Source of the DNA: Arcobacter roscoffensis | Lineage (GTDB): Bacteria; Campylobacterota; Campylobacteria; Campylobacterales; Arcobacteraceae | Length of the DNA stretch: 64,000 nt | Direction: 5' to 3' | NCBI RefSeq assembly: GCF_024267655.1 | Contig: NZ_CP100595.1 | Location: 868,001 to 932,000, forward strand | Part shown: piece by piece, positions 5,258 through 48,227 of the stretch | Layout: every line of letters begins with the position of its first letter | Position numbering within the stretch: position 1 is the first letter of the stretch | Program-made: the position numbers and the translations under genes | The notes under the pieces: model-generated | The model's database searches: none | Told to the model about the DNA's origin: nothing | The model's input: only the letters and a program-made list of their open reading frames with translations

Positions 5258-5965
<708 letters not shown>

Positions 5966-5988
5966 CTATGTTCCTTTACAATTTTGCG

Positions 5989-5994: not shown

Positions 5995-6028
5995 TCTAAG
6001 TTTAGATTAATATTTGATTAACAATAGC

Positions 6029-7096: not shown

Positions 7097-7099
7097 TTG

Positions 7100-8023: not shown

Positions 8024-8031
8024 TTTTTACC

Positions 8032-8811: not shown

Positions 8812-8820
8812 AGTAGGTCC

Positions 8821-8866
8821 TTTAATATTGGATTATTTCAATGATGAAATCATATCCAATATTAAA
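8821..8866 (-). terminator. Large stem-loop between trpE and pdxJ
   Basis: Outer arms of 13 bases (8821-8833 with 8854-8866) and inner arms of six bases (8835-8840 with 8845-8850) close a four-base ATGA loop, with a small internal bulge. On the transcribed minus strand it follows the trpE stop and ends at the pdxJ Shine-Dalgarno without a U-run. It may separate trpE from pdxJ expression by termination, processing or translational control. Confidence 0.6.
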
Positions 8867-8893
8867 TAAAGAAGAGAATAAAAGTTTGATTTA

Positions 8894-10306: not shown

Positions 10307-10318
10307 TAATCTTCCAGT

Positions 10319-19048: not shown

Positions 19049-19075
19049 AAAAGATGCGAATTATTCGCATCTTTT
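19049..19075 (+). terminator. Rho-independent terminator after the pseudopilin gene
   Basis: Twelve-base perfect arms (AAAAGATGCGAA and its complement) close a three-base TTA loop, and the 3' arm ends in TTTT. It begins directly after the stop codon and isolates the export module downstream. Confidence 0.85.
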
Positions 19076-19183: not shown

Positions 19184-21805
19184 ATGAGGATTATATATAG
19201 TTTACTACTTGTATGTAGTGTGTTATTCTCCGCTACATTAACACCTACTCAATTAGAATTGGCTAAAGCTGCTGGCTACAGTGAAGCTGATATAAAAAAA
19301 GAGTTATCTAAAAAACAGAACACAGAAAACGAAGTTCAAAAAGAACAGAAGGTAGAAAATGATGTTGTTTTAGATGAAAAAGGTATTCAAAAAGAAGAGT
19401 TAAAATCAGAAGATAAAAAACTAGAAAGATTTGCTTCTCTATTTTTCAACAACAAAAATAAACTAAACCCATATAGTATTCCAACTCCATCAAATTATAG
19501 TTTAAATCATGGAGATAAAATATCACTTAAAATCTACGGTGGAACAAATGAAGATTTTGTTTTAGATGTAAATAAAGATGGTAATATAAATATTCCTCAA
19601 GTAAAAGAGCTTAAAGTAATAGGTCTAAATTTTCAAGAAGCAAAAAAGCTTATCAAAGAAGAGACTAAAAAAGCTTACCCAAATAGTACAAATATTTTAG
19701 TTGATATATCAGAATTCTCATCTATTCAAGTTACTATTTCAGGACTTGTAAATGCTCCTGGTCTTTATAACCTTTCTTCTTTTTCTACTATAAAAGATGC
19801 ACTTATTTCAAGTGGAGGTATTTTAGAAAATGGTTCATATAGAAATATCCTACTTAAAAGAGCAGGTAAGGTGTATAAGTCATTTGATTTATATTCACTT
19901 GTAAGATATGGTGATGCAAGTAGTGATACCATTTTAAAAAATGGTGACATTATTTTAGTTAAACCTATTAGTAAAGAGATTAAGCTTACAGGTGATGTAA
20001 ACTACAATGCAATTTTTGAACTTAAAAAAGGCGAAAGTTTTAGGACACTATTTAACTTTGCAGCTGGTTTTAAAGCAAAAGCAAACCAAAATGCAATAAG
20101 TCTTAAAAGATATGAAAATGATACTATAAAAGTATATACATTAAGTAAAGAAAAACTATATAAATTTACTCCAAAAAATGGAGATGAAATCAATGTATAT
20201 TCTACAAGTATTTTAGGTGCAAACCTAGTAAAAATTTCAGGAAATATCGTAGCACCAAGTGAAAAAGAACTTCCCTCTGATAAAAAGCTTTCAACACTTC
20301 TTCAAAATGAATTAAATCAGTTTGGAGAAAATGGATACTTTAAAAAAGATACAAATTATAACTTTGCAGTTATTAAAAATGACAATAATATCAAAAGTTT
20401 CAATCTTCAAAAAGTACTAGATAAAAAAGAAGATCATATTATCAAAGCAGGTGATATTATCACTATTTACAAAAATTCAGATTTAAAAGAAAAACCTTAT
20501 ATTTATGCAAAAGGTGAAGTAGTAGATAATAGTAAAAGAAAATATGAATTTTATGAAGGTATGAGTGTATCTGATCTTTTTGGACTTGTGAAGTTTAATA
20601 GTGAAGTATTTGATGATGAAGTGCGAAAATCTGTAAGAGTGGATAAAACAAAAGTTCAAATTACAAGACTTGATAATAATCAAAAATCAACATTTTTAGT
20701 AAACTTAAGTGAAAACAAAAACTTTAAACTTAAGAAATATGATGAAGTAAGATTCTTTGATTTCTCCGCTGTAAATGATAAAATGACAGCAATCATAAAA
20801 GGTGAAGTATTTATCCCTGGAACTTATGACATAAATGAAAATACAACTATAAATGACATAGTAAATATATCAGGTGGACTTACAAAAAAAGCTTTAAAAG
20901 CTAGATTTGAGGTTGTTAGATACTATACAGAAGACTATGAGAGAAAAAGAAAAGTCTTAGCTTTAGATATGAACAAAGCATTAAACTTAAAAATAAAAAT
21001 CTTCTCAGATGATGAAATCACTATCTTCCCAATAGCAAACTGGAATGATAAAAAATATGTAAATATCAAAGGACTAGTTAGATACCCAGGTAAATACGCA
21101 ATAGAAGAGGGTGAAAAACTATCAAGTGTGATTTTAAGAGCTGGTGGTTTCTTGCCAAATGCCTTTGTGGAAGGTGCTGTATTTACAAGAGAAGAGGTTA
21201 GAGAACTTCAAGAAAAAAGACTTCAAGAAACACTTGATAGACTTGGGAATCAAGTACTGAAAGCAAGCACTTCAAGTGAGAATTTAGGTGAAGAAAAAGA
21301 TGAAACAGCAAAAAAACTTCAAGCTATAAAACAGCTAGAAAATGAAGCAAAAAGAAATAAACCTATAGGAAGAGTATCTTTAAATCTATATTATGATCTA
21401 AATAGATTTAAAAAATCACCTTATGATATAGCACTAAAAGATGAAGATACTTTATATATTCCATCAATTAGTGATACGGTATCTGTTGTAGGTGAGGTTT
21501 TAAATCAAAATACCTTTGTATTTAATGATGACTTAAATACTGATGATTATTTATCAAAAGCAGGTGGTGTAACTGAGCTTGCAAATGAAGATTATATATA
21601 CATAGTAAAAGCAAATGGTGAAACAGTAAAATATGAGTCAAGCTACTTTTGGGGTAATGACAAAGAGATATTCAAAGGTGATACAATAGTTGTACCTATG
21701 GAGTTTGATATGTTCTCTGATATGAAGTTTGCAAAAGATGTATCAAGTATACTTTATCAGTTTGCTATTACAGCGGCTTCTCTTAAAACTGTAGGTGGTA
21801 TATAG
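19184..21805 (+). CDS. Polysaccharide export protein with multiple SLBB domains (Wza-like)
   Basis: An 873-residue secreted protein. After a signal peptide (MRIIYSLLLVCSVLFSA) come a Lys/Glu-rich linker and a polysaccharide export domain (SLNHGDKISLKIYGGTNEDF near residue 100). A series of SLBB repeats follows, each starting with a pattern like VTISGLVNAPGLYNL, AIIKGEVFIPGTYDI or VNIKGLVRYPGKYAI. Such proteins form the periplasmic and outer-membrane channel for capsule or exopolysaccharide. It is more than twice the length of Wza, as in the large multi-SLBB branch. I choose the second ATG because GAGGAA sits at proper spacing before it; an in-frame ATG at 19169 lacks a ribosome-binding site. 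No clear lipobox is visible. Confidence 0.88.
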   Translation: MRIIYSLLLVCSVLFSATLTPTQLELAKAAGYSEADIKKELSKKQNTENEVQKEQKVENDVVLDEKGIQKEELKSEDKKLERFASLFFNNKNKLNPYSIPTPSNYSLNHGDKISLKIYGGTNEDFVLDVNKDGNINIPQVKELKVIGLNFQEAKKLIKEETKKAYPNSTNILVDISEFSSIQVTISGLVNAPGLYNLSSFSTIKDALISSGGILENGSYRNILLKRAGKVYKSFDLYSLVRYGDASSDTILKNGDIILVKPISKEIKLTGDVNYNAIFELKKGESFRTLFNFAAGFKAKANQNAISLKRYENDTIKVYTLSKEKLYKFTPKNGDEINVYSTSILGANLVKISGNIVAPSEKELPSDKKLSTLLQNELNQFGENGYFKKDTNYNFAVIKNDNNIKSFNLQKVLDKKEDHIIKAGDIITIYKNSDLKEKPYIYAKGEVVDNSKRKYEFYEGMSVSDLFGLVKFNSEVFDDEVRKSVRVDKTKVQITRLDNNQKSTFLVNLSENKNFKLKKYDEVRFFDFSAVNDKMTAIIKGEVFIPGTYDINENTTINDIVNISGGLTKKALKARFEVVRYYTEDYERKRKVLALDMNKALNLKIKIFSDDEITIFPIANWNDKKYVNIKGLVRYPGKYAIEEGEKLSSVILRAGGFLPNAFVEGAVFTREEVRELQEKRLQETLDRLGNQVLKASTSSENLGEEKDETAKKLQAIKQLENEAKRNKPIGRVSLNLYYDLNRFKKSPYDIALKDEDTLYIPSISDTVSVVGEVLNQNTFVFNDDLNTDDYLSKAGGVTELANEDYIYIVKANGETVKYESSYFWGNDKEIFKGDTIVVPMEFDMFSDMKFAKDVSSILYQFAITAASLKTVGGI

Positions 21806-21806
21806 T

Positions 21807-22754
21807 ATGAGTGAAAAGCTTAGTGTAAATGAACAAGCTTCATATATAGAAGAAGATGAAATAGATTTAAGAGAGCTTTTTAATACTATCTTAAAATACA
21901 AATACAAGATACTATTATTTGTATTTGTGATTACAACTATTACTTTTGTGTATGTTTTAAGTATACCAAACTCATATAAGTCAAGTGTAGTTTTATCTCC
22001 TCAAAGTGAACAAAAATCAGTTGGAGGAGGTCTTTCATCTTTAGCTTCACTAGCTGGAGTTAGTCTTGGTGGTGGAAGTTCAAAAGATCCAGCTGTGATG
22101 ATGCAAACAGTACTAGGGGATTATAGTTTTAATGAAATGATGGTAGAAAAATACAATCTTACTTCAAAACTAGAAAATCAAGAAAATTTAGTTTTTGCTT
22201 TAGGTCTTGATAGTGTTTATAATATGTTTAATTCAAAAGATGAAGATGAACAAGATACTAGATCAAAAGAAGAAAAAGTATATTCGACTATAAATAGTTT
22301 GAAAGAAATTTTATCTGTTTCAGCTGATAAAAAATCTGGACTTATTACTTTAAGTGCTGAGCTTCAAGATAGATACTTAGCAAAAGAGCTTGTGGATATA
22401 TATCTAAAAGAAATAGTAGATAAAGTAAGAACTTCTGATATGAAAGAGATAGATGAACAAATCAAGTACTACAACAAAGAGTTAAGCTCAACATATGATG
22501 TATCATTAAAAGAACAACTTAGTAAATCTCTATCAGGTTTATATCAAAAGAAAGTGTTCTCACAAGCAAATGACTATTACTTTGTATCAAAAGTAGTAGA
22601 TAGTAGGGTCTCTTATATAAAAGAAAAGAGTAAACCAAAAAGAGCTTTAATACTTGTAGTTTCATTCGTAACTTCATTTATTCTTGGAATATTTTTAGTG
22701 TTTTTCTATGAGTTTATAAGAAGTGAAAAAACAGATGAACTTAAAAACTCTTAG
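21807..22754 (+). CDS. Wzz-type chain-length / polysaccharide co-polymerase
   Basis: A 315-residue inner-membrane protein with the Wzz layout. An acidic N-terminus with IDLRELFNTILKYKYKILL leads into the first helix (about 35-52), and a periplasmic domain includes a Gly-rich patch. A second helix (ALILVVSFVTSFILGIFLVF) lies near the C-terminus. There is no Walker motif or tyrosine tail, so no BY-kinase is fused. It would control chain length or gate export together with the SLBB protein, whose stop codon lies one base before this ATG. A GTG four codons upstream is a less likely start. Confidence 0.85.
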   Translation: MSEKLSVNEQASYIEEDEIDLRELFNTILKYKYKILLFVFVITTITFVYVLSIPNSYKSSVVLSPQSEQKSVGGGLSSLASLAGVSLGGGSSKDPAVMMQTVLGDYSFNEMMVEKYNLTSKLENQENLVFALGLDSVYNMFNSKDEDEQDTRSKEEKVYSTINSLKEILSVSADKKSGLITLSAELQDRYLAKELVDIYLKEIVDKVRTSDMKEIDEQIKYYNKELSSTYDVSLKEQLSKSLSGLYQKKVFSQANDYYFVSKVVDSRVSYIKEKSKPKRALILVVSFVTSFILGIFLVFFYEFIRSEKTDELKNS

Positions 22755-24870
22755 TATCCTTCCTTTAACTGCAAGTTTTTTACTTGCAGCAAAAACACCT
22801 GAAAATATCACAGCTACTTATAGTGGAAATACAGGTGTTTTTGAAACACCAAATGCTAGAATCATGAAAGACTGGTCTATGAGGTTTTTTCTAAATGAAG
22901 ATAAACCCTATAGGTATTATGGGCTTACTGCTACTCCTTTGCCCTTTATAGAAGCAAACTTTCATATGACTCAAGTATCAGGAGTTGCAGGATTTTCTGA
23001 TAGTGAAGGTTATGGAAGTTATAAAGATAAATCTTTAAGTGTAAAATTTCTTTTAAAAAAAGAGGGTGAATATACACCAGCTCTTGCTATTGGTGCTGAT
23101 GATATTTGGGGTACTTCTCTTTATACTTCAAAGTATTTGGTTCTTTCTAAAAATATAGGTTACTTTGATTTATCCCTTGGATATGCAAAAGGTAGACTAG
23201 GGGGTGAAGATCTTAAAAAATATGAGGCAAACTCTTCAAATTCAGGAAGTTTTGATAATAACTCAATAAACTTTCTAAAAAATACAGATTGGGGTGGTGG
23301 AAAACCTTTTGGTTCAGTAGTTTTTAATGCTAGTCCATCTTTTTCTTTGATGGCTGAGTATGCTCCTATAGATTATGCAAAAGATAAAGTAAACCCATAT
23401 ACTGTTGGAGATTATGAACTTCCAAAATCAAAGTTTAATTATGGTCTTAAGTATAAGTACAGTAACAACTCTATTTTTAATCTATCTTATCAAAGAGGAA
23501 ATACCATATCATTTGGATACACATATCAATTTGGATTTGATAGAACTGGTATGTTTGATCACCTTCCTGATCCAAGATGGAAAGCTAGTGATGAAAAAAA
23601 AGCAGAGTATAAAAATCTAAATGAAAAAGAGTTATCAGATAAACTCTCAAAAGAAGTAGCAGCAGAAAAGTTCAAGTATGTAAAAACAGCAGTAAATGAA
23701 AACAGTGTTTGGACAGAGATAGATAATCCAAGATACTACAATGAACTTAAAGCAGCAGGAAGAGCAATCTCAGCTGTAGATGAAGTAGCACCAAAAAAAT
23801 ATGATACTATTTATATGACTATCAAAGACAAAGAGATAAAAAAGAAAACTATAAAAGTAAATAGAGCTGAATTTGATATGTATGAAAATCAAAAAGTAAG
23901 TGATGCATATATGAGAGATGCTATTTTGATTTCAAATGATACCGATGGTATGTATGAAAAATTTTCAAAAGGCAAAGATTTATATATAAGTGATTCTGTT
24001 GCTACTGAAAAGTTTAGATATAAGTTTGCTCCAAAAATTGGAACTATGTTAAATCATAAAGACAAACCCTTTGCTATGAAAATATCTATGGCTGCAAATG
24101 CTTCTTATGAATTCACCGACAACTTTGAAGTTCATGGTTCAATAGAACATCCTTTATATCATAGTGGAACTGAGCTTTCATCATCACCTCTTGAAGAGGG
24201 TAAGTTATCTCTTAGAGGTGATATTACAGAGCATTTTACATATAATGACACACAAATGTCTCACTTAAGTATGGTATATAAAGCAAACGCTTTTAATGAT
24301 TCTTTTTTTAAAGCGGAGCTTGGATACTTGGAGTACTCATTTGCAGGAGTTGACTTAGAATGGTATAAACCTATGTTTGATGAGAGATTTGGAATAGGAC
24401 TTCAATATCAAAATGTATATAAGAGAGAAGTTGACGAACTTTTTGGAATAAAAGATGAGTATAAATACGATGCTAAGTTTTTAAACCTTTATTATTTAGT
24501 AAATCAAAAGTATGATTTGCACATGGGTGCAAAAATAGGGCAGTTTTTAGCAGGTGATAAGGGTATCAGACTAGAAGTTGCTAGAAACTATAAAAACTTT
24601 ACATTTGGAGCTTTTGCTACATATACAGATTCAAAAAAAGTATTTGAAAATGAAGATAACAAAGGTTATATAGATAAAGGTGTATATATAAAAGTACCTC
24701 TTGAAGTGTTTACATATAAAAATGTAAAAGATAGACTTAGATTTGGACTTACTCCATGGACAAGAGATGTTGGTGTAAGTGCATCAACACTTGATAGTTT
24801 ATATCCTATGAATAATAGTGAAAATAATACACAAATTATGAAAAAGTATATAAATAATCTAAGAGAATAA
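22735..24870 (+). CDS. YjbH-like exopolysaccharide export protein
   Basis: A 711-residue secreted protein with a short signal peptide (LSILPLTASFLLAA). The N-terminal region, SGNTGVFETPNARIMKDW, is typical of the YjbH family (DUF940), which in E. coli belongs to the yjbEFGH exopolysaccharide operon and is predicted to be an outer-membrane barrel. Many alternating aromatic strands and paired barrel-like segments support that location. It overlaps the end of the Wzz-like gene by 20 bases, so the two are translationally coupled. A GTG at 22723 is an alternative start that also leaves a signal peptide. Confidence 0.82.
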   Translation: MNLKTLSILPLTASFLLAAKTPENITATYSGNTGVFETPNARIMKDWSMRFFLNEDKPYRYYGLTATPLPFIEANFHMTQVSGVAGFSDSEGYGSYKDKSLSVKFLLKKEGEYTPALAIGADDIWGTSLYTSKYLVLSKNIGYFDLSLGYAKGRLGGEDLKKYEANSSNSGSFDNNSINFLKNTDWGGGKPFGSVVFNASPSFSLMAEYAPIDYAKDKVNPYTVGDYELPKSKFNYGLKYKYSNNSIFNLSYQRGNTISFGYTYQFGFDRTGMFDHLPDPRWKASDEKKAEYKNLNEKELSDKLSKEVAAEKFKYVKTAVNENSVWTEIDNPRYYNELKAAGRAISAVDEVAPKKYDTIYMTIKDKEIKKKTIKVNRAEFDMYENQKVSDAYMRDAILISNDTDGMYEKFSKGKDLYISDSVATEKFRYKFAPKIGTMLNHKDKPFAMKISMAANASYEFTDNFEVHGSIEHPLYHSGTELSSSPLEEGKLSLRGDITEHFTYNDTQMSHLSMVYKANAFNDSFFKAELGYLEYSFAGVDLEWYKPMFDERFGIGLQYQNVYKREVDELFGIKDEYKYDAKFLNLYYLVNQKYDLHMGAKIGQFLAGDKGIRLEVARNYKNFTFGAFATYTDSKKVFENEDNKGYIDKGVYIKVPLEVFTYKNVKDRLRFGLTPWTRDVGVSASTLDSLYPMNNSENNTQIMKKYINNLRE

Positions 24871-24901
24871 AATAAAATTTTTAAATTTAAAGATTTTATG
24901 G

Positions 24902-24907
24902 TAAAAT
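24902..24907 (+). promoter_or_regulatory. Candidate extended -10 box before the Ala/Gly-rich gene
   Basis: TAAAAT preceded by TGG forms an extended -10 lying 30 bases before the ATG, with AAAAAAAGGA as ribosome-binding site. The small gene may therefore be transcribed independently and at a higher level than the upstream export genes. Confidence 0.4.
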
Positions 24908-24937
24908 AACGCAAAACTTAAAAAAAGGATATTTTCT

Positions 24938-25285
24938 ATGAAAAAATTATTATCAATCGTTTTCGCTTCTTCTTTATTTGTAGCTAGTGCTGTAGCTCAA
25001 ACAGGTGCTGCTGGTTCAGGTGCTGCTGGTTCAGGTGCTGGAGGAGCAGGTGCTGCAGGTTCTGCTGGAGCAAGTGCAGGTGCAGGTGGAGCTGCCGGAG
25101 CTGGTGCTGCCGGAGCTGGTGCTGGTACTGTCGGAGCTGGAGCTGCTGCTGCTGGTGGAGCTGCCGCTGCTGGTGGAGCTGCAATTGGTGGAATTAGTGC
25201 TGCTACTGCTGCTGCCGCTGCTGCTGCTGCAGGTGTTGCTGCTGCTGTTGCTTCTGGTAACAACTCAACAACAACTCACCACTAA
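24938..25285 (+). CDS. Secreted Ala/Gly-rich small protein resembling YjbE
   Basis: A 115-residue protein made of a clear signal peptide (MKKLLSIVFASSLFVASAVA), a mature body that is almost entirely Ala, Gly and Ser, and a polar tail SGNNSTTTHH. E. coli YjbE, as I recall it, has the same plan: signal peptide, small-residue body, SNTG and Thr-rich tail. YjbE is encoded with YjbH, which lies directly upstream here. The biochemical role of YjbE-type proteins is not known to me. The gene contains three tandem repeats of 15-18 bases and is much richer in GC than its neighbours because of GCT/GGT codons. A terminator follows. Confidence 0.75.
   Translation: MKKLLSIVFASSLFVASAVAQTGAAGSGAAGSGAGGAGAAGSAGASAGAGGAAGAGAAGAGAGTVGAGAAAAGGAAAAGGAAIGGISAATAAAAAAAAGVAAAVASGNNSTTTHH
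25004..25033 (+). repeat. Tandem repeat, two exact 15-base units, in the Ala/Gly-rich gene
   Basis: The unit GGTGCTGCTGGTTCA occurs twice in a row and encodes GAAGS. It is a multiple of three, so slippage would change protein length without breaking the frame. Confidence 0.95.
25091..25120 (+). repeat. Second tandem repeat, two exact 15-base units
   Basis: The unit GCTGCCGGAGCTGGT occurs twice and encodes AAGAG. It is again in frame. Confidence 0.95.
25148..25183 (+). repeat. Third tandem repeat, two 18-base units differing at one base
   Basis: The units GCTGCTGGTGGAGCTGCC and GCTGCTGGTGGAGCTGCA differ only at the last position and encode AAGGAA twice. Confidence 0.95.
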
Positions 25286-25294
25286 TTAAAACTA

Positions 25295-25322
25295 TAGAAA
25301 CCCAATATTTCTTGGGTTTCTA
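25295..25322 (+). terminator. Hairpin terminator after the Ala/Gly-rich gene
   Basis: Eleven-base perfect arms (TAGAAACCCAA and its complement) close a six-base loop. The U-run is weak, but the stem is strong and lies just after the stop codon. It separates the export module from the sugar-nucleotide operon. Confidence 0.75.
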
Positions 25323-25422
25323 CTATCTTCCACAAACTTTTAAAATAATAACTTAAATCACACTTTATAAAAACTTAGATATACTACATCCCAAAAAACA
25401 TAAACATATAGGGAAATAAAAT

Positions 25423-26802
25423 ATGCCTTCATCAATTTTCAGAGAATATGACATAAGAGGTATCTTTGAGCAAGAACTAAACGAAGATATGGTAAAAAAA
25501 ATAGGCTTTTATCTAGCAACTAAACTAAAACAAAAAGTAACAAGTGCTAAATACATGGCTGTAGGTTATGATGCTAGAACTCATTCACCTATACTAAAAG
25601 ACTGGTTAAGTAGTGGTATAAATAAAGCTGGACTTGAAGTACTAGATATGGGACTTGTTCCAACTCCTGCAAACTATTTTTCAAACTATGTAGAGTTTGA
25701 TAAAAAACAAGTAGATGGTTCAGTTATGATAACAGGTTCACATAATCCACCCCAATATAATGGATTTAAAATCACACTTGATAAAGCTCCTTTTTTTGGT
25801 GAAGAGATATATGCTCTTGGAAGAGAAATCTTAGAAGATACTCAAACTATAGAGAATAGTACAAAAACTATAAGCATAGATGCAAAAGATAAATATATAG
25901 ACTATATAGTTGAACACTTCTCAAAACTTAATTTAAAAGGTAAAAAGTTTATCTTTGATTGTGGAAACGGAGTTGCTGGTGTAGTTTTAAGAGATATACT
26001 TGATAGGCTTGATATTTCATATGATATTTTATTTGAAGAGCCAGATGGAACTTTCCCAAATCATCACCCAGACCCAAGTGATGAATCAACGCTAAAAGAT
26101 ATAAAAGAAAAGTTAGCTAGTGGTGAATATGAGTTTGGTTTTGCATATGATGGAGATGCAGATAGAATAGCACTTTTATCAAAAAGCTATAACTTCAAAG
26201 GTGATATTTTAGCTATTTTCTTTTCACGATTTATAGAAAATCCTACAGTTATTGGTGAAGTAAAATGTAGTCAAATTATGTATGACACTATCAATACTTA
26301 TGGAAAAGCTGTGATGTATAAGACAGGTCATAGCAATCTAAAGGTAAAAATCAAAGAGTTACATGCCTCTTTCGCAGCAGAAGTATCTGGACATCTTTTC
26401 TTCAATGACAGATATTTTGGATATGACGATGCTATTTATTCTACATTTAGAGCTTTAGAGCTTATAGCTGATGGTTTTGATTTTGATAAAGAGTATGAAT
26501 CTTTACCAAAAGTATATAGCACAGATGAGATAAATATCACAGTAACTGAGGATACAAAATTTCCATTAGTAGAAAAACTAAAAGCATCACTTGAAAATCC
26601 ACCAAGTTTTATGCCAAAGATAAAAGATATTATTACAGTAGATGGTATAAGAGTAAACTTTGAAGATGGATGGGGACTAGTTAGAGCTAGTAATACTACT
26701 CCAAAACTTGTGACAAGATTTGAAGCAAAATCACAAGAAAATGCAAAATTATATGAAAACTCACTTATGAGACTTTTTGAGCAAATAAAAGAAGAGGTAT
26801 AG
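25423..26802 (+). CDS. Phosphomannomutase/phosphoglucomutase
   Basis: A 459-residue alpha-D-phosphohexomutase that interconverts hexose 6- and 1-phosphates. The phosphoserine loop is MITGSHNPPQYNGFK, with the active serine near residue 107. The metal loop is AYDGDADRIAL near residue 244 and the sugar-binding EVSGHLFF near residue 321. The C-terminal phosphate loop RASNTTPKLVTRFEA is also present. The family (AlgC/ManB) is bifunctional for glucose and mannose, so I give no single symbol. It lies four bases before galU and would supply glucose 1-phosphate. Confidence 0.93.
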   Translation: MPSSIFREYDIRGIFEQELNEDMVKKIGFYLATKLKQKVTSAKYMAVGYDARTHSPILKDWLSSGINKAGLEVLDMGLVPTPANYFSNYVEFDKKQVDGSVMITGSHNPPQYNGFKITLDKAPFFGEEIYALGREILEDTQTIENSTKTISIDAKDKYIDYIVEHFSKLNLKGKKFIFDCGNGVAGVVLRDILDRLDISYDILFEEPDGTFPNHHPDPSDESTLKDIKEKLASGEYEFGFAYDGDADRIALLSKSYNFKGDILAIFFSRFIENPTVIGEVKCSQIMYDTINTYGKAVMYKTGHSNLKVKIKELHASFAAEVSGHLFFNDRYFGYDDAIYSTFRALELIADGFDFDKEYESLPKVYSTDEINITVTEDTKFPLVEKLKASLENPPSFMPKIKDIITVDGIRVNFEDGWGLVRASNTTPKLVTRFEAKSQENAKLYENSLMRLFEQIKEEV

Positions 26803-26806
26803 AAGT

Positions 26807-27640
26807 ATGATAAAAAGATGTTTATTCCCAGCAGCAGGATATGGTACAAGATTTTTGCCAGCTACAAAAGCAATTCCTAAAGAGATGCTGCCAGTACTTA
26901 CAAAACCACTTATTCAATACGGAGTTGAGGAAGCACTAGACGCAGGATGTAGTACTGTTTCAATAGTTACATCTAAATATAAAAAAGCAATAGAAGATCA
27001 CTTTGATACAAATACTGATATAGAAAACTCTATAAAAGGATCTTCAAAAGAAGAACTTTTAAGTGATGTAAATAAGATTATTGAAACTACAACTTTTTCT
27101 TATACTAGACAACTAGAAATGAAAGGTTTAGGTCATGCTATTTTATGTGGTGAAACTCTAATAGGAAATGAAGCTTTTGCAGTAATCTTAGCAGATGACT
27201 TGTGTGATAATACTTCTAGTGAAGGTTCAGTTCTAAAACAAATGACAAAACTGTATGAAAAATACAAATGTTCAATAGTAGCAATAGAAGAAGTACCAAA
27301 AGATAAAACAGATAAATATGGTGTAATTGATGGTGAGCAAATAGAAGAAGGTATTTTTAGAGTATCAAATATGGTAGAGAAACCAGACCCAAAAGATGCT
27401 CCAACAAACCTAGCAATCATAGGAAGATATATATTAACGCCAGATATTTTTGATATTTTAAGAGAAACAAAACCAGGAAAAGGCGGAGAGATACAAATAA
27501 CTGATGCCTTACTAGAACAAGCAAAACAAGGAAAAGTAATAGCTTATAAGTTTAAAGGAAAAAGATTTGATTGTGGAAGTGTAGATGGCTTTGTGGAAGC
27601 TACTAATTACTTTTATGACAAAACAAAAGAAGCGAAGTGA
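26807..27640 (+). CDS. galU: UTP-glucose-1-phosphate uridylyltransferase
   Basis: GalU makes UDP-glucose from UTP and glucose 1-phosphate. The nucleotidyltransferase signature FPAAGYGTRFLPATKAIPKE is at the N-terminus. AVILADDLCDN (metal-binding Asp) and the C-terminal RFDCGSVDGFVEA match the family. The length of 277 residues is standard. Its product feeds Ugd and GalE encoded further along the window. The region after the stop contains the toxin-antitoxin promoter. Confidence 0.97.
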   Translation: MIKRCLFPAAGYGTRFLPATKAIPKEMLPVLTKPLIQYGVEEALDAGCSTVSIVTSKYKKAIEDHFDTNTDIENSIKGSSKEELLSDVNKIIETTTFSYTRQLEMKGLGHAILCGETLIGNEAFAVILADDLCDNTSSEGSVLKQMTKLYEKYKCSIVAIEEVPKDKTDKYGVIDGEQIEEGIFRVSNMVEKPDPKDAPTNLAIIGRYILTPDIFDILRETKPGKGGEIQITDALLEQAKQGKVIAYKFKGKRFDCGSVDGFVEATNYFYDKTKEAK

Positions 27641-27669
27641 TTCACTTTTCTTCTTTTCAAATATTTTGC

Positions 27670-27675
27670 TATAAT
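27670..27675 (+). promoter_or_regulatory. Extended -10 promoter of the toxin-antitoxin pair
   Basis: A perfect TATAAT preceded by TGC lies 19 bases before the antitoxin ATG, leaving a very short leader with an AAAAAAGG ribosome-binding site. It gives the pair a transcription start independent of galU. Confidence 0.6.
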
Positions 27676-27694
27676 AAAACAAAAAAGGTTTATT

Positions 27695-27898
27695 ATGAAA
27701 ACAATAAAATTAGAAATAGATGATTCTAAAATTGATATTGTTTTGAATATTATAGATAATCTTAAAGATGATGTTATTAGTAAATATGAAATTATAAGTG
27801 ATAAAAAGGAATCAAAAGATTTTATAGATATATCAGAAGAATCATTATATAAAATTTGGGAAAATGATGAGGATAGCGACTATGACAAGTTTTTGTAA
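27695..27898 (+). CDS. Putative antitoxin of a MazF-like toxin-antitoxin pair
   Basis: A small acidic 67-residue protein with no domain I recognise. The N-terminal half (MKTIKLEIDDSKIDIVLNII) could form a strand and helix of a dimerisation or DNA-binding unit. The C-terminal half is acidic (WENDEDSDYDKF), as expected for a tail wrapping a basic toxin. The call rests on position: the last 17 bases overlap the start of a MazF/PemK-type gene in another frame. Confidence 0.65.
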   Translation: MKTIKLEIDDSKIDIVLNIIDNLKDDVISKYEIISDKKESKDFIDISEESLYKIWENDEDSDYDKFL

Positions 27899-28217
27899 GT
27901 ATGATATTGTTGTAGTAAAGTTCCCATTTGCAAGTAGTTTGAAGTATAAAGCTAGACCTGCTGTTATAGTATCCTCAGATATTTATAATGAAAATAGTAG
28001 AAATACTCTTCTTATACTTGCTATTTCTAGTAGTATAGTAAATAAGCTTGACTTTGAAATTGAAGTTAAACTTTGGAAAGAATCTGGTCTATTAAAACCA
28101 TCAATTTTTAAATCATCAGTAGCAACTATAGAAAAAACATCAGTATTAAAGAAATTAGGTAAATTGAAAAAGGAAGATATAAATAGACTTGACTCATTTA
28201 TGAATATACTTTGTTAG
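27882..28217 (+). CDS. MazF/PemK-family endoribonuclease toxin
   Basis: A 111-residue protein of the MazF/PemK fold. FCKYDIVVVKFPFASSLKYKARPAVIVSSD holds the family's usual first strands and the conserved K-x-RP-A-V-I-V element; SRNTLLILAISSS follows, and KPSIFKSSVATIEK near the end resembles the conserved KPS segment. MazF enzymes cut mRNA at short sequences. I use the ATG at 27882 rather than 27864 because the family begins shortly before the first strand. The upstream small gene overlaps its start. Its insertion between galU and pgi interrupts an otherwise continuous sugar-nucleotide operon and suggests horizontal acquisition. Confidence 0.82.
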   Translation: MTSFCKYDIVVVKFPFASSLKYKARPAVIVSSDIYNENSRNTLLILAISSSIVNKLDFEIEVKLWKESGLLKPSIFKSSVATIEKTSVLKKLGKLKKEDINRLDSFMNILC

Positions 28218-28229
28218 AATAGAATTAAT

Positions 28230-28256
28230 TAGCTTAAATATATCTCATTTAAGTTA
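28230..28256 (+). terminator. Hairpin after the toxin gene
   Basis: Ten-base arms (28230-28239 with 28247-28256, one G-U pair) close a seven-base loop, starting 13 bases after the toxin stop. No proper U-run follows, so it is a probable but weak terminator. Confidence 0.5.
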
Positions 28257-28318
28257 TAACAAAATAACTTTTCAGTAAAATACACCAAATAATACACCAA
28301 AAGATAGGAAAAGTAAAA

Positions 28319-29533
28319 TTGAAATACGAAAAGAATTTCTACCAAATCAAATCAAATAGCGAGATATTTGAAAAGATAGTGGAAGAGAAAAAAGTTATAG
28401 GATATTATAACTTAGTAAATCAAGATACTTCAGAGATTTTAACTTTTTCAAAAACTGTAACAAAAAAAAATATAGTTGTAGTTGGTATTGGTGGAAGTAG
28501 TTTAGGAACTTATGCAATAAATAGTTTTTTAAGAAATAAATCAAATACTAAAAAACTTCACTTTTTAGAATCAACAGATCCCTTGGAGCTTAAAAAAAGA
28601 TTATCATATATATCTGATATAAATGATGCATTATTTATCATCATCTCAAAATCTGGTACTACTATAGAGACTATTTCAGTTTTTAAATACTTACATAGTT
28701 TAGTAAAAATAGATAAATCAAACTGTGTATGTATAACTGAAAATGATAGTAAACTAAACTCATATGCAAAAACAAATGATATAAAAACATTTGAAATCCC
28801 TAAAGATGTAGGTGGAAGATTTTCTGTGTTTTCACCTGTAGGACTTTTACCTTTGTCTATTATGGGAATAGATATAAAAAAACTACTAGATGGATGTAAA
28901 GAAGTAAATAATAGCTTTTTTGAAAAAGAAGAGTACTTTGACTCTATCTTTGAAAAAGCTAGATTTATGGTAGAGAATAAAAATAGATTTAATATAAATG
29001 TAATTTTTTCATACTCTTCTCTTTTAGAAGGCTTTAATAAGTGGTATATTCAATTATGGGGTGAAAGCTTAGGAAAAGTAAATATAAATGGAACAAGACA
29101 AGCCCTGACTCCAATAGGTCTTATTGGTCCAGTAGACCAACACTCTTTTCTACAACTAATAATGGAAGGTGTAAGAGATAAAACAGTTACATTTATAAAA
29201 GTAGAGGACTTTGAAGAAGAAACAGTAATACCAGATATATCAATACCTCATTTAGAAGAGTTAGACTATGTAAATAATATCAAGTTTAAAGACTTGATAA
29301 ATATGCAAGCTGATTCAACAATACAAGCAGTACAAGATATAGGGAATATCCCAACAGATGTAATTACAATAGAAAAAGTAGATGAGTTTAATATAGGAAA
29401 ACTCATGTACTCATATCAACTATTAACATCAATAGTTGGAAGCTTTATGCAAATAGATACATATAATCAACCAGGTGTTGAAGAAGGTAAGATTATTTTG
29501 AAAAATAAGTTTAGAAATGAGGATATGAAGTAG
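28319..29533 (+). CDS. pgi: Glucose-6-phosphate isomerase
   Basis: Interconverts glucose 6-phosphate and fructose 6-phosphate. The family motifs are VVVGIGGSSLGTYA near residue 56, IISKSGTTIET near residue 103, GGRFSVFSPVGLLP near residue 165 and the C-terminal YNQPGVEEGK containing the end signature. The 404-residue length is shorter than the 550-residue E. coli enzyme but normal for Campylobacterota. The start is a TTG preceded by AGGAAAAG. The stop codon is adjacent to the ugd ATG. Confidence 0.95.
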   Translation: MKYEKNFYQIKSNSEIFEKIVEEKKVIGYYNLVNQDTSEILTFSKTVTKKNIVVVGIGGSSLGTYAINSFLRNKSNTKKLHFLESTDPLELKKRLSYISDINDALFIIISKSGTTIETISVFKYLHSLVKIDKSNCVCITENDSKLNSYAKTNDIKTFEIPKDVGGRFSVFSPVGLLPLSIMGIDIKKLLDGCKEVNNSFFEKEEYFDSIFEKARFMVENKNRFNINVIFSYSSLLEGFNKWYIQLWGESLGKVNINGTRQALTPIGLIGPVDQHSFLQLIMEGVRDKTVTFIKVEDFEEETVIPDISIPHLEELDYVNNIKFKDLINMQADSTIQAVQDIGNIPTDVITIEKVDEFNIGKLMYSYQLLTSIVGSFMQIDTYNQPGVEEGKIILKNKFRNEDMK

Positions 29534-30739
29534 ATGAAAATAGCAATAGCAGGAACAGGATACGTAGGCCTGTCAAATGGAATACTATTAGCACAACATA
29601 ATGAAGTAATAGCATTAGATATAATTCCTCAAAAAGTAGAACTTCTAAATAATAAAAAATCACCAATAGAAGATAAAGAAATAATTGAATACTTACTAAG
29701 AAATGATTTAAACTTTAAAGCAACACTAGATAAAAAGCAAGCTTACGAAAATGCAGACTTTGTAATAATCTCAACACCAACAGATTATGATCCTGAAACA
29801 AACTATTTTAATACTAAGTCAATAGAGTATGTAATAAAAGATGTTCTTGAAATAAACCCAAATACAATAATGGTAATAAAATCAACAATTCCTGTAGGAT
29901 ACACAAAAGAAATATCAAAAAAGTTTGATACAAATAATATTATCTTCTCTCCAGAATTTTTAAGAGAAGGAAAAGCACTACACGATAATCTATATCCTTC
30001 AAGAATTATAGTAGGTGAACAAAGCCAAAGAGCCGAGACTTTTGCAAAACTACTAGAGCAAGGTGCAATAAAAGAAAATATAGATGTTTTATTTACTGAC
30101 TCAACAGAAGCAGAAGCAATAAAACTATTTTCAAATACATATCTAGCTATGAGAGTATCATACTTTAATGAACTAGACTCATATGCACAAGCTCATAATC
30201 TTGACTCAAAACAAATTATAGAAGGTGTAGGATTAGATCCAAGAATTGGTAGTCATTATAATAATCCAAGCTTTGGATATGGTGGATATTGCCTTCCAAA
30301 AGATACAAAACAATTAAGAGCAAACTATGAAGATGTACCACATAGCTTAATATCAGCAATAGTAGAAGCAAACTCTACAAGAAAAGATTTTATAGCCCAA
30401 AGTATTATAGAAAAACTAAATCTAACACCTGTAAACCCTGATAATATAGAAACTGCAAAAAAAGTAGGAGTATATAGACTTATCATGAAAGAAGGAAGTG
30501 ATAACTTTAGAGCTTCAGCTATTCAAGGAATTGTGAAAAGAATCAAAGCTAAGGGAATAGAAGTAGTTATCTATGAACCAAATTTAGAAGATGATGTGTT
30601 TTTTAACTCAAAAGTAGTAAAAGATTTAGATGAGTTTAAAAAGCAAGTAGATGTAATAGTAGCAAATAGACTTAGTGAAGACTTACTTGATGTTCAAGAT
30701 AAAGTTTATACTAGAGATATTTTTAATAGTGATAATTAA
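29534..30739 (+). CDS. ugd: UDP-glucose 6-dehydrogenase
   Basis: Oxidises UDP-glucose to UDP-glucuronate with two NAD. The Rossmann start is [20 protein letters not shown], and the catalytic cysteine lies in [14 protein letters not shown]. The UDP-binding C-terminal domain follows ([20 protein letters not shown]). At 401 residues it fits the short Ugd branch common in polysaccharide islands, distinct from the WbpO-like dehydrogenase encoded at 31806. It abuts pgi with no gap. Confidence 0.95.
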
Positions 30740-30752
30740 GAAAAGGAACAAA

Positions 30753-31781
30753 ATGAGATATGAAAAGATAAAAGAAGAGCTCTTAAATAATCCAAAGAGA
30801 TGGTTAATAACAGGATGTGCTGGATTTATAGGCTCAAATCTTTTAGAAACTCTTTTAAAACTAAACCAAAAAGTCATAGGTCTAGATAACTTTTCAACTG
30901 GTCATCAACATAATTTAGATGATGTGAAAAATTGTGTTTCAAATGAACAATGGAAAAACTTTTCTTTTATTAAAGGTGATATTTCTGATTATGATACTTG
31001 TGATATTGCTTGTAAAAATGTAGATATTATTTTAAATCAAGCTGCATTAGGTTCAGTTCCAAGATCAATTGATAATCCTGTAATTTCAAATAATTCAAAT
31101 GTAACAGGTTTTTTAAATATTTTAACAGCCGCAAAAGAAAATGGTGTAAAAAGATTTGTATATGCTTCATCTTCATCTGTTTACGGTGATAGTGTTGAGC
31201 TTCCAAAAGTAGAAGAAAGAACAGGTAGTCTTTTATCACCTTATGCTGTTACAAAATATGTAAATGAACTTTATATGGGAGTTTTTTATAAGTGTTATGG
31301 CTTTGAATCAATTGGACTTAGATATTTTAATGTATTTGGTAGAAGACAAGATCCAAATGGAGCGTATGCAGCAGTAATGCCAAAATGGATTTCTTCAATA
31401 TTAAATGGTGAAAATGTTTACATAAATGGTGATGGTGAAACATCAAGAGACTTTACATATATAGATAATGTTATTCAAGCAAATATTTTAGCAGGAACTA
31501 CAACAAATAAAGAAGCTTTTGCTCAAGCATTTAACACAGCAGCAGGTGGAAGAGAAACACTAAATAATTTATATAATGCAATAACAAATGGTATAAAAGA
31601 AAAATTACCAGAATTAGAAGTAAAAGAAGCAGTTTATAGAGATTTTAGAGCAGGAGATATAAGACATTCAAATGCAAATATTAATAAAGCAAAAGAACTA
31701 TTAGGATATGAACCAACTCATACACTTGAAACAGGCTTACAAGAATCAATAGCTTGGTATATAGAGAACTTAAAGAAATAA
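30753..31781 (+). CDS. UDP-N-acetylglucosamine 4-epimerase (WbpP/TviC-like)
   Basis: An extended-SDR enzyme of 342 residues. [16 protein letters not shown] is the NAD-binding motif, [10 protein letters not shown] holds the catalytic serine, and [13 protein letters not shown] carries the Tyr-x-x-x-Lys pair. [15 protein letters not shown] is characteristic of the WbpP/TviC group, which interconverts UDP-GlcNAc and UDP-GalNAc (or the uronates). I use the ATG at 30753 because AAAGGA precedes it; an upstream in-frame ATG lies inside ugd. It stands next to the WbpO/TviB-like dehydrogenase, its usual partner for UDP-GalNAcA synthesis. Confidence 0.88.
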
Positions 31782-31805
31782 ATATTAATTGGGAGAGATG
31801 AATAA

Positions 31806-33053
31806 ATGAATAAAATTTGTGTAATAGGTCTAGGATATGTGGGATTGCCATTAGCAGCAGCATTTTCATCAAAATATCATGTAGTAGGATTAGATATATA
31901 TCAAGAGAGAATTGATGAATTATCACGTGCGTTTGATAGAACATTAGAATTAAATGAATCACAATTGCAAGAAGCTATTGATAATGGTATAAAATTTACT
32001 TGTAGTATAGATGATATAAAAGATTGTAATATTTATATAGTAACAGTACCAACTCCAATTGATAAAAATAAAAGACCAGATTTAACTCCCTTAATTAAAG
32101 CAAGTGAAACTGTAGGAAAAGTTCTAAAAAAAGATGATATCGTAATTTATGAATCAACTGTTTATCCAGGAGCTACAGAAGAAGATTGCGTACCTGTACT
32201 TGAAAAGTTCTCAAATCTAACTTTCAATAAAGACTTCTTCTGTGGTTATTCACCTGAAAGAATTAACCCAGGTGATAAAGAACACACAGTTACAAAGATT
32301 CTAAAAGTAACAGCTGGTTCAACTCCTGAAATTGGAAAAAAAGTAGATGCATTATACTCTTCTATTATAACAGCTGGTACTCACTTAGCACCAACAATAA
32401 AAGTAGCAGAAGCAGCAAAAGTAATTGAAAATAGTCAGAGAGATATAAACATTGCATTTGTAAATGAATTAGCAATTATCTTTAATAAACTTGGTATTAA
32501 TACAAATGATGTACTAGAAGCAGCAGGAACAAAATGGAACTTCTTACCATTTAAACCAGGATTAGTTGGTGGACATTGTATTGGAGTTGATCCATATTAT
32601 TTAACACATAAAGCACAATCAATTGGATATAACCCTGAAATTATTTTAGCAGGAAGAAGACTAAATGATAATATGGGTATATATGTAGCTAATCAAGTAA
32701 TAAAACTAATGATTAAAAAAGGTCATAAAATAGAAGGTTCTAATGTATTAATGTTAGGAATTACTTTTAAAGAGAATTGTCCAGATATTAGAAATTCAAG
32801 AGTAATTGATGTAGTAGAAGAATTACAAGAGTTTGGATGTAATATAGATGTATATGATCCATGGGCAGATAAAGAAGAAGTTAAACATGAGTATTCTTTA
32901 GATTTAGTAAAAGATATAGACACATTAAAATATGATGGAATAGTAGTAGCTGTTGCTCATGATCAGTTTAAAACTTTAGATTTATCAAATAGAGATAAAG
33001 CTGTTTTATTTGATATTAAGTCTATTATTGATGATGTTGATGGGAGACTTTAA
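31806..33053 (+). CDS. UDP-N-acetylhexosamine dehydrogenase (WbpO/TviB-like)
   Basis: A 415-residue nucleotide-sugar dehydrogenase. The NAD-binding start is [17 protein letters not shown]. The substrate-recognition and catalytic segment is [16 protein letters not shown] with the active cysteine, and [16 protein letters not shown] lies in the C-terminal domain. The sequence resembles TviB/WbpO, which oxidises UDP-GalNAc or UDP-GlcNAc to the uronic acid, more than Ugd. Together with the preceding epimerase it should give UDP-GalNAcA or an isomer. The stop codon overlaps the legB start. Confidence 0.9.
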
Positions 33054-34243
33054 TGTCAAAAGTTTTAAATCTGATAGGTCGAACACAAGAACTTTTTTGT
33101 GATGATATAAATAAACATGATAATGAGTTAAAGAAAATAGTATCAAACTCTACATTTTTAGTTATTGGTGGTGCTGGAAGTATTGGTCAAGCAGTTACAA
33201 AAGAAATATTTAAAAGAAATCCTAAAAAAATTCATGTTGTTGATATATCTGAGAATAATATGGTTGAATTAGTTCGAGATATAAGAAGCAGTTTTGGATA
33301 TATTGATGGAGAATTTGCAACATTCGCCCTTGATATTGGAAGTATTGAATATGATGCTTTTATAAAATCAGATGGTCAATATGATTATGTTTTAAACCTA
33401 TCTGCACTTAAGCATGTAAGAAGTGAAAAAGATCCATTTACACTTATGCGCATGATTGAAACAAATGTTTTCAACACAGATAAAACACTTCAACAATCAA
33501 TTGAAAATGGAACTAAAAAGTATTTTTGTGTAAGTACAGATAAAGCTGCAAACCCTGTTAATATGATGGGTGCAAGTAAAAGAATCATGGAAATGTTTGT
33601 AATGAGAAAATCAAAACAAATAGATGTTTCTATGGCTAGATTTGCAAATGTAGCTTTTAGTGATGGAAGTTTATTACATGGATTTAATCAAAGAATTCAA
33701 AAAAATCAACCAATAGTCGCTCCTAATGATATAAAAAGGTATTTTGTAACACCTCAAGAATCTGGTGAATTATGTTTAATGTCTTGTATCTTTGGTGAAA
33801 ATAGAGATATATTTTTCCCAAAATTAAGTGAAAACTTACATCTTATCACTTTTGCAGATATTGCAGTAAAGTATTTAAAGAATCTTGGATATGAACCATA
33901 TTTATGTAAAGATGAAGATGAAGCTAGAGAATTGGCAAAAACTCTACACTCTCAAGGTAAATGGCCTTGTTTATTTGCTTCTAGCGATACAACAGGTGAA
34001 AAAGATTTTGAAGAGTTTTTTACAGATAAAGAAGTTTTAGATATTAATAGATTTGAAAATCTTGGGATTATAAAAAATGAAGCTTTATTTAATGAAGATA
34101 AATTAAATTATTTTGAAACAATAATTAAAAACTATAAGGCAAATTTATCATGGACAAAAGAAGATATTGTAAAAGAGTTTTTTAGAATGATTCCAGATTT
34201 TGGACATAAAGAGACTGGTAAATATCTTGACGGGAAGATGTAA
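33053..34243 (+). CDS. legB: Nucleotide-sugar 4,6-dehydratase, LegB-like
   Basis: A 396-residue SDR dehydratase with FLVIGGAGSIGQAVTKEIF, CVSTDKAANPVNMMGASKRI and FANVAFSDGS, the pattern of PseB/CapD/LegB proteins. These convert UDP- or GDP-GlcNAc to the 4-keto-6-deoxy sugar. The retained-configuration LegB assignment comes from the next genes, which form a legionaminic set (aminotransferase, NeuD-like acetyltransferase, NeuB-like synthase, NeuC-like hydrolysing epimerase, CMP-transferase). An extra C-terminal region (about residues 300-396) is typical of this long subgroup. It overlaps the dehydrogenase upstream by one base. Confidence 0.85.
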   Translation: MSKVLNLIGRTQELFCDDINKHDNELKKIVSNSTFLVIGGAGSIGQAVTKEIFKRNPKKIHVVDISENNMVELVRDIRSSFGYIDGEFATFALDIGSIEYDAFIKSDGQYDYVLNLSALKHVRSEKDPFTLMRMIETNVFNTDKTLQQSIENGTKKYFCVSTDKAANPVNMMGASKRIMEMFVMRKSKQIDVSMARFANVAFSDGSLLHGFNQRIQKNQPIVAPNDIKRYFVTPQESGELCLMSCIFGENRDIFFPKLSENLHLITFADIAVKYLKNLGYEPYLCKDEDEARELAKTLHSQGKWPCLFASSDTTGEKDFEEFFTDKEVLDINRFENLGIIKNEALFNEDKLNYFETIIKNYKANLSWTKEDIVKEFFRMIPDFGHKETGKYLDGKM

Positions 34244-34244
34244 T

Positions 34245-35381
34245 ATGCAAAAAACAGTTGATTTTATAAAACAAACATTTAATACAAATGAGTTTATCCC
34301 TTTACATGAGCCGAGATTTATAGGTAATGAAAAGAAGTATTTAAATGATTGTATCGATTCTACATTTGTATCAAGTGTTGGAAAATATGTAGATACTTTT
34401 GAAAAAGAGTTTGCAAAAAGAGTTGGAAGTAAGTATGCGATAGCAACTGTAAACGGAACAGCTGCACTTCATATTTCACTACTTTTAGCAGATGTGAAAA
34501 AAGATGATGAAGTTATCACTCAACCACTTACTTTTATTGCAACTTGTAATGCTATCAGTTATATAGGAGCAAAACCTATATTTGTGGATGTTGATTTAGA
34601 TACGATGGGTTTAAGTCCTGAATCACTTAAGAACTTCTTAGAAACAAATTGTGAAATTATAGAAAATAAATGTATAAATAAAACAACTGGAAAAACTATA
34701 AAAGCATGCGTTCCAATGCATACATTTGGACACGCTTGTAGAATAAATGAGATAAATGAAATTTGTGATATTTGGTATATTTCCTTAGTAGAAGATGCAG
34801 CTGAAAGTTTAGGCGGTTACTATAAAGACAAACATACAGGAACTTTTGGAAAAGTTGGAGCATTTTCTTTTAATGGAAATAAAATCATAACTTCTGGTGG
34901 TGGTGGAGTTATCGTTACAGATGATGAATCATTAGCAAAAAAAGCGAAGCATATCACTACTACAGCAAAAGTCCCTCATCCATATGAATATGTACATGAC
35001 GAGATAGGATATAATTATCGACTTCCAAATATTAATGCAGCACTTTTAGTAGCTCAGTTAGAACAAATTGATAAATTTTTAGAATCAAAAAGAAATTTAG
35101 CCACAAAATATAAAGAATTCTTTTTAGAAAACAATATAAAATTTATTACTGAACCAAAAGATTCAAAATCAAATTATTGGCTTCAGGCTATTTTACTGGA
35201 CGATGAAAATCAAAGAAATGAATTTTTAGACTTTACAAATAAAAATGGTGTAATGACAAGACCAATTTGGAAGCTAATGAATGAACTTGAAATGTTCAAA
35301 GATTGTCAAAAAACAGATTTGAAAAATGCGAAATATCTTGAAAAAAGAGTTGTAAATATACCTAGTTCGGTGATTTTATAA
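34245..35381 (+). CDS. legC: PLP-dependent sugar aminotransferase, LegC-like
   Basis: A 378-residue DegT/DnrJ/EryC1-family enzyme that would aminate C4 of the 4-keto sugar. VNGTAALHISLLLA binds PLP phosphate, VEDAAESLGGYYKDKHTGTF holds the aspartate, and FSFNGNKIITSGGGGVI has the Schiff-base lysine. LNIN-like sites are also kept (YNYRLPNINAALLVAQLEQI). I set the start at 34245, just after the legB stop; an in-frame ATG at 34200 lies inside legB and would add 15 non-family residues. Confidence 0.9.
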   Translation: MQKTVDFIKQTFNTNEFIPLHEPRFIGNEKKYLNDCIDSTFVSSVGKYVDTFEKEFAKRVGSKYAIATVNGTAALHISLLLADVKKDDEVITQPLTFIATCNAISYIGAKPIFVDVDLDTMGLSPESLKNFLETNCEIIENKCINKTTGKTIKACVPMHTFGHACRINEINEICDIWYISLVEDAAESLGGYYKDKHTGTFGKVGAFSFNGNKIITSGGGGVIVTDDESLAKKAKHITTTAKVPHPYEYVHDEIGYNYRLPNINAALLVAQLEQIDKFLESKRNLATKYKEFFLENNIKFITEPKDSKSNYWLQAILLDDENQRNEFLDFTNKNGVMTRPIWKLMNELEMFKDCQKTDLKNAKYLEKRVVNIPSSVIL

Positions 35382-48217: not shown

Positions 48218-48227
48218 AAGAAAAGAA

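Follow-up and report, generated by a model that had tools for sequence, protein, structure and literature searches.

Proteins of the YjbH/GfcD family are found in polysaccharide export loci of Escherichia coli and Vibrio. The E. coli yjbEFGH operon works apart from its polymer genes, and it is not known to contain an outer-membrane polysaccharide export (OPX) protein or a Wzz protein. In Vibrio parahaemolyticus, yjbH-yjbG-yjbF and wbfE-wbfF-wzz are described as conserved capsule-cluster genes (PMC7829505). According to PMC2987987, deletion of wbfF, an OPX homologue, shifts the K-antigen band and deletion of wza-wzb-wzc is without effect. Class 2 OPX proteins (KpsD type) are described in PMC9603273 as Poly_export, one or more SLBB domains and then a GfcC module, with a median length of 824 amino acids for Class 2B; the same source counts YjbH near 55 Class 1, 5 Class 2A and 19 Class 2B OPX genes. 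Here, a four-gene module was analysed in a 64,000-nucleotide stretch of Arcobacter roscoffensis DNA (NZ_CP100595.1, positions 868,001 to 932,000; the window hereafter, numbered from its first letter), which sits within a single 3.15-Mb contig. The module lies on the + strand at 19184-25285 and encodes an OPX protein, a Wzz protein, a YjbH protein and a small Gly/Ala-rich protein, in that order. Gene calls agreed with a first-pass annotation of the window on all four genes and their order. As judged from sequence comparison, the module is a compact variant of a known capsule-export system, in which a predicted YjbG is built into the OPX protein and YjbF is missing.

The OPX gene (19184..21805, + strand, 873 amino acids) was assigned by Pfam, profile-profile, model and structure comparison, and its ATG at 19184 is backed by an 873-residue homologue at a related locus (L135). 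It overlaps by 11 bp with the gene of the Wzz protein, a polysaccharide co-polymerase without kinase domain (21795..22754, +, 319 amino acids, Pfam). The Wzz gene in turn overlaps by 20 bp with the gene of the YjbH/GfcD family protein (22735..24870, +, Pfam and model); its reading frame is listed from a GTG at 22723, and the length of 711 amino acids is counted from the ATG at 22735. After a gap of 67 bp, the gene of the small GfcA/YjbE-like protein follows (24938..25285, +, 115 amino acids, assigned by architecture only).

The OPX protein consists of a signal peptide, a Poly_export/Wza-like core at about residues 100-345, extra SLBB domains and a GfcC-like module at about residues 624-845. 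Residues are numbered on the 873-residue form, and the Pfam and profile-profile runs were numbered from an ATG five codons upstream (878 residues). Poly_export (PF02563) scored 42.1 bits against a cut-off of 28, and SLBB (PF10531) matched five stretches with 106.5 bits, in agreement with the multi-SLBB protein of 873 residues read in the first pass. At the C-terminus, the Pfam matches lay below cut-off (GfcC_C, 18.5 bits vs 20; GfcC_N, 16.3 vs 22.1). The OPX profile matched a free-GfcC profile with an E value of 2.6e-23 over 210 columns (residues 629-850 in the 878-residue numbering), which is nearly the whole GfcC length. The same region matched a short Wza-type profile at E 1.9e-11 and the N-terminal part matched the Wza profile at E 2.5e-23, and the GfcC and Wza profiles matched each other at just E 1.2e-5. 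These profiles were built from 8 giant or SAR86 OPX proteins, 55 free GfcC proteins selected by phmmer (200-330 amino acids) and 17 short Wza-type proteins. Two other GfcC profiles were discarded: an iterative one drifted into YjbH and OPX proteins owing to GfcC-YjbH fusions, and a second one shrank to two sequences.

Structure comparison pointed the same way. Foldseek of the OPX model returned Wza first (E 6e-17) and the GfcC structure 3P42 at E 5e-9. VIA-align placed 3P42 on residues 623-849 (Z 11.3, root-mean-square deviation 5.6, 184 aligned) and Wza on about residues 98-385 (Z 13-14). A PDB sequence search with a profile of 15 OPX C-terminal regions reached 3P42 at E 1.5e-7; Wza and ComEA chains outscored it through the common SLBB fold. 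By profiles and model, the protein is a Wza-type OPX whose C-terminal 220 residues are a predicted GfcC/YjbG module, and for this reason YjbG appears fused into the OPX protein rather than lost. YjbF (PF11102) has no match anywhere in the genome. A free-standing YjbG/GfcC was not found in the genome either, and the sole GfcC_C match lies inside the OPX protein. YjbF alone is truly missing, genome-wide, and YjbG is retained as an OPX fusion, so the absence of both proteins, as first annotated, holds for YjbF and fails for YjbG. At the locus, no tyrosine kinase (Etk/Wzc) was found by Pfam, and no Etp-like match occurs within positions 14001-50000.

The Wzz protein scored above the Pfam cut-off and, as first annotated, no kinase domain was found in its 319 residues by Pfam. 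The YjbH identity was confirmed by PF06082 (E 1.8e-122; 410.8 bits with a cut-off of 24), the match covering positions 5-655 of the 658 in the family model. The YjbH model predicts an outer-membrane protein of two beta-barrels, with 12 and 13 strands (counted by eye) around a middle domain; this same arrangement has been published for E. coli GfcD (PMC11494523). Against PDB sequences YjbH gave no real match, only five chance ones, and Foldseek of the model returned mostly general large-barrel matches with low TM-scores. In the small protein, a signal peptide precedes a Gly/Ala-rich stretch, a hydrophobic run of small residues and a short polar tail that ends in TTTHH; neither Pfam nor NCBIfam matched it. 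A layout of this kind (signal peptide, Gly/Ala/Ser/Thr-rich stretch, hydrophobic small-residue segment, polar tail) recurs in most of 62 small-protein candidates beside YjbH, which were picked by composition and position and of which at least three (L052, L071, L082) look like chance open reading frames. The tails of the E. coli and Vibrio proteins are Thr-rich, whereas those of the window lineage are short and end in HH or HSH (5/5: window, L018, L134, L135, L136). The YjbE-like label given in the first pass is thus supported by architecture and not by a homology test, which the low complexity of these proteins hampers. GfcA was proposed as a possible glycan carrier (PMC8592465), but the window protein is poor in Ser/Thr.

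The gene set recurs in relatives. YjbH is present in 6 of 104 genomes of the family and stands right after OPX-Wzz, in the same order, in all six, which span five genera (in one, G457, the contig ends within the OPX gene). In all five loci with enough sequence, YjbH is followed by the small gene. The initial assignment to polysaccharide export is well supported. All five YjbH-linked family loci with enough flank (window, L018, L134, L135, L136) have glycan genes on one side or both. The YjbH of Candidatus Sulfurimonas ponti is 57% identical to that of the window; together with the neighbouring genes, sequence relatives of this kind point to Campylobacterota. In the class, 6 of 397 genomes carry YjbH; two are family genomes already counted, and four carry divergent YjbH-like proteins (L020, L021, L022 and L023, in other Campylobacterota) with no OPX neighbour within the stretches read. 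A literature search pairing Campylobacterota with YjbH found no paper.

The same 397 genomes were searched with the OPX C-terminal module. Ninety-four matched, and the strong matches (E <1e-50) amounted to 16 places in 15 genomes; most of the weaker ones were open frames of about 530-610 amino acids, which from their size we take to be KpsD. In the 13 further genomes with a strong giant OPX, Wzz follows the OPX gene in 13/13 and YjbH is nearby in 0/13 (the stretch for G307 covered only 4 kb). A rule that YjbH accompanies every giant OPX was rejected on this count. The neighbours of OPX-Wzz in these loci are mostly unrelated genes, and two of the genomes with OPX-Wzz and no adjacent YjbH (G047 and G249) carry a divergent YjbH on another contig. 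The OPX tree joins the window protein, S. ponti and four members of the family in a single clade with a support of 100/100. G457, the sixth family genome, falls beside a relative that lacks YjbH, and three changes of the YjbH label are required on the tree. Because of the 13/13 for Wzz against 0/13 for YjbH and these three changes, the OPX-Wzz pair is the core, and YjbH and the small protein are an add-on that was gained or lost more than once. A lack of co-conservation of the four families, which the first pass had named as a refutation, is borne out by half: OPX-Wzz is the wider core, and YjbH and the small gene are confined to few genomes. Signal-peptide proteins of 320-353 amino acids stand directly after OPX-Wzz at L144 (10505-11533) and L150 (6118-8165) and are possible alternative outer-membrane partners; four candidate alternative barrels after OPX-Wzz in YjbH-less loci had no Pfam match. 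At one locus (L138, genome G060, 5112-10913), two tandem giant OPX genes precede a single Wzz gene.

A polymer cluster adjoins the module at 25423..49154, and its gene families bear out the Wzx/Wzy cluster first annotated there. Its sugar genes are pgm, galU, pgi, ugd and TviC/TviB-like genes. Nonulosonate genes lie at 33053-41713 (LegC, NeuD, NeuB, NeuC and a cytidylyltransferase), and a polysialyltransferase-like gene (41704-42633) stands just downstream of them. Wzx follows at 42623-43873, a Wzy_C protein at 44970-46187 and an initiating sugar transferase at 48228-49154 on the minus strand. The sole other Wza/Wzz pair in the genome belongs to a second glycan locus at 2.34 Mb, with its own 263-residue Wza and 783-residue Wzc. 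A second Wzy_C protein, possibly WaaL, lies at 2.197 Mb among glycosyltransferase-like genes. The neighbouring glycan is the likely client of the module, because the module adjoins this cluster and the sole other OPX protein (Wza) has its own Wzc in a separate glycan cluster. The question which polymer is served, raised in the first pass, is answered in part by this adjacency and by that separate Wza-Wzc pair. Three side observations belong to these loci: a MaoC-acetyltransferase fusion at 36948-38165 among the nonulosonate genes, a PemK/MazF-like toxin-family gene at 27864-28217 that separates galU from pgi within the sugar cluster, and a repetitive surface-type protein of 2124 residues beside the second Wza-Wzc locus (L108, 11664-18038).

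From the observed gene content, domains, homology, order and recurrence, we infer the transport role, the partners and the client polymer as follows. The products of the four genes probably make up the late stage, from periplasm to surface, of a Wzx/Wzy-dependent exporter of a capsule or O-antigen capsule, with the adjacent cluster's glycan as its cargo. The K-antigen shift reported on deletion of wbfF in V. parahaemolyticus speaks for this. In the inner membrane, Wzz would work with Wzy and set the chain length with no tyrosine kinase. A ring of the 873-residue OPX protein would receive the chain, and its Wza-like core and additional SLBB domains would lead the chain across the periplasm. The C-terminal GfcC module would hold the OPX protein to the YjbH double barrel; in E. 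coli, separate GfcB, GfcC and GfcD bind one another (PMC8592465). YjbH would form or assist the outer-membrane exit, possibly by sideways release of a lipid-anchored chain, and the small Gly/Ala protein would be the counterpart of GfcA/YjbE. A further proposal is put forward tentatively, as one that could well be wrong. The YjbF-YjbG-YjbH exit complex may have been condensed in this lineage, with the YjbG/GfcC adaptor as the OPX C-terminus, into a continuous Wzz-OPX-YjbH conduit without YjbF. The giant GfcC-fused OPX with a short Wzz would then be a kinase-independent design distinct from short Wza with Wzc.

Several points weigh against these proposals. The GfcC_C Pfam scores are borderline (18.5 and 20.3 bits against a cut-off of 20), and the OPX model is moderate (10 sequences, mean predicted local distance difference test (pLDDT) 61.6), so that the relative placement of its domains is unreliable. 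A free GfcC is not always replaced by the OPX-fused module, since Vibrio has both, and the 0/13 noted above shows YjbH to be dispensable for OPX-Wzz in most Campylobacterota, so that it is no universal exit for this OPX type. The idea of a lateral gate for lipid-anchored chains goes back to simulations made on GfcD of E. coli (PMC11494523). According to PMC8117528, anchored colanic acid of E. coli, in mutants that include yjb changes, is not attached through WaaL.

Alternatively, the OPX-Wzz pair alone might export the chain, with the C-terminal helix of the OPX protein as its route, and YjbH and the small protein might anchor or modify the chain at the surface instead of forming a pore. Such a division of labour seems a possible but not the expected outcome. 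The 13 of 13 further strong loci with OPX-Wzz and without YjbH argue for it, as do the yjb mutations reported among those altering capsule anchoring in E. coli (PMC8117528). The OPX model also predicts a C-terminal helix at residues 843-870 with a hydrophobic moment (muH) of up to 0.41, a moderate amphipathicity, and a C-terminal amphipathic helix is given as a feature of Class 2B OPX proteins (PMC9603273). However, the helix has a pLDDT below 50, the OPX protein has no Pfam Wza_C match at E<=1, and undetected barrels, such as the signal-peptide proteins after OPX-Wzz at L144 and L150, could serve the YjbH-less loci.

It is also conceivable, if unlikely, that the module exports a second, separate polysaccharide, such as the polymer of another locus or a yjb-type exopolysaccharide, and that the adjacency to Wzx/Wzy is incidental. 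The mostly unrelated neighbours of OPX-Wzz in the 13 YjbH-less Campylobacterota loci and the E. coli yjbEFGH operon, acting apart from polymer genes, are compatible with this, and the E. coli yjb product is described as distinct from colanic acid (PMC8117528). On the other hand, glycan genes flank every YjbH-linked family locus with enough sequence (5/5), and the distant glycan cluster owns a Wza-Wzc pair. A chance neighbourhood of four genes with no joint function is very improbable. The rarity of YjbH in the class and the four divergent copies without OPX in the stretches read would suit it, but the overlapping genes, the same order in six family genomes of five genera and the single OPX clade of six sequences contradict it. 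Export of the adjacent-cluster glycan by the four gene products together is the reading that we prefer.

The surroundings of the module hold some further features. The first pass had stated that the module is separated from the cluster by terminators. This is weak for + strand transcripts, because both hairpins, at 19049..19075 between a pilin-like gene and the module and at 25294..25323 on its 3' side, scored as terminator-like in the scan for the minus strand and not for the plus strand. A single type IV pilin/pseudopilin-like gene (18641-19048) directly precedes the module and is likewise present at L135. The DnaB helicase gene at 16080-18554 holds an intein with Hint and LAGLIDADG homing-endonuclease domains at roughly residues 205-540; the DnaB at the same site in L135 has 482 residues and is intein-free.

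For comparison with known export systems, a neighbourhood map was made of 80 named genome loci with YjbH plus further comparison loci. Its label for free GfcC is incomplete, since free GfcC of about 240-310 amino acids is mostly labelled OPX there. E. coli-type sets of small gene, YjbF, YjbG and YjbH appear on the map. Some Burkholderiales loci carry a YjbG-YjbH fusion, and SAR86 loci show OPX-YjbH-YjbF with no free YjbG. In two Vibrio loci, an OPX of 897-898 amino acids and a kinase-less Wzz face a set of small gene, YjbF, YjbG and YjbH. At the Rhodobacterales loci whose OPX measures about 470 amino acids, the map shows no free GfcC and the alignment no evident GfcC module. A rule that GfcC-OPX fusion always removes free GfcC and YjbF was rejected: Vibrio keeps both, two SAR86 loci (L026, L027) and L093 keep YjbF, and the Rhodobacterales loci just named do not fit it either. 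Among the loci examined, all OPX proteins of at least 750 amino acids (22/22) were accompanied by a kinase-less Wzz at their locus; these giant OPX proteins are mostly from Campylobacterota and were found with the window's own C-terminal module, and are thus not independent samples. Of 29 OPX proteins of at most 510 amino acids, 12 had a Wzz-domain protein at their locus; these Wzz-domain proteins were all of 710-787 amino acids, the size of Wzc, and 10 of the 12 showed a Walker-A pattern. Two loci fall into the 510-750 class (L137, with an OPX cut at the contig end and a 322-residue Wzz; L038, with 565 residues as called and a 733-residue Wzc).

The module bears on the roles of YjbF, YjbG and YjbH in capsule export. 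A natural set without YjbF, and with YjbG apparently within the OPX ring, hints at which pieces may be dispensable and at the contact that must be kept, the one between OPX and YjbH. It would also offer a simpler, four-gene set for asking whether YjbH is exit pore, anchor or accessory. Moreover, a single bacterial class contains OPX-Wzz pairs both with YjbH and lacking it.

Among the known systems, E. coli yjbEFGH has YjbH and, by architecture, a YjbE-like protein in common with the window module and differs by its YjbF and free YjbG. The E. coli group 4 capsule operon gfcABCDE-etp-etk likewise has a YjbH-family protein (GfcD), a small GfcA, a Wza-type OPX and a Wzz-domain protein. However, its GfcE is a short Wza-like protein of 379 amino acids, GfcB and GfcC are separate, Etp and the 726-residue kinase Etk are present, and gfcA comes first, whereas the small gene comes last in the window. 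Among Class 2 OPX proteins, KpsD has ATP-binding cassette (ABC) transporters as partners, whereas the window OPX has Wzx/Wzy neighbours. All three traits of Class 2 (Poly_export, SLBB and C-terminal GfcC module) are recognised in the window OPX, and its 873 residues are ordinary for the class, given the Class 2B median. The closest likeness is with Vibrio, where wbfF-wzz (VP0220-VP0221) beside yjbH-yjbG-yjbF (VP0215-VP0217) at the edge of the capsule cluster brings together all part types of the window module: an OPX of about 898 amino acids with the same C-terminal module, a kinase-less Wzz of 328-346 amino acids, YjbH and a YjbE-like small protein. From these Vibrio loci and the YjbH counts near Class 2 OPX genes (PMC9603273), the combination of giant OPX, kinase-less Wzz, YjbH and YjbE-like protein is, by sequence, already known. 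Calling the module a hybrid, with YjbF and YjbG replaced by the SLBB protein and Wzz, was misleading, because YjbH normally occurs in the company of OPX and Wzc/Wzz proteins, and the YjbG homologue is part of the OPX protein. What appears to set the window module apart is its compactness: YjbF and a free YjbG are retained in Vibrio, and the window module has neither; the Vibrio halves stand in opposite orientation in the two loci read, whereas the window genes all run one way, with the small gene at the end.

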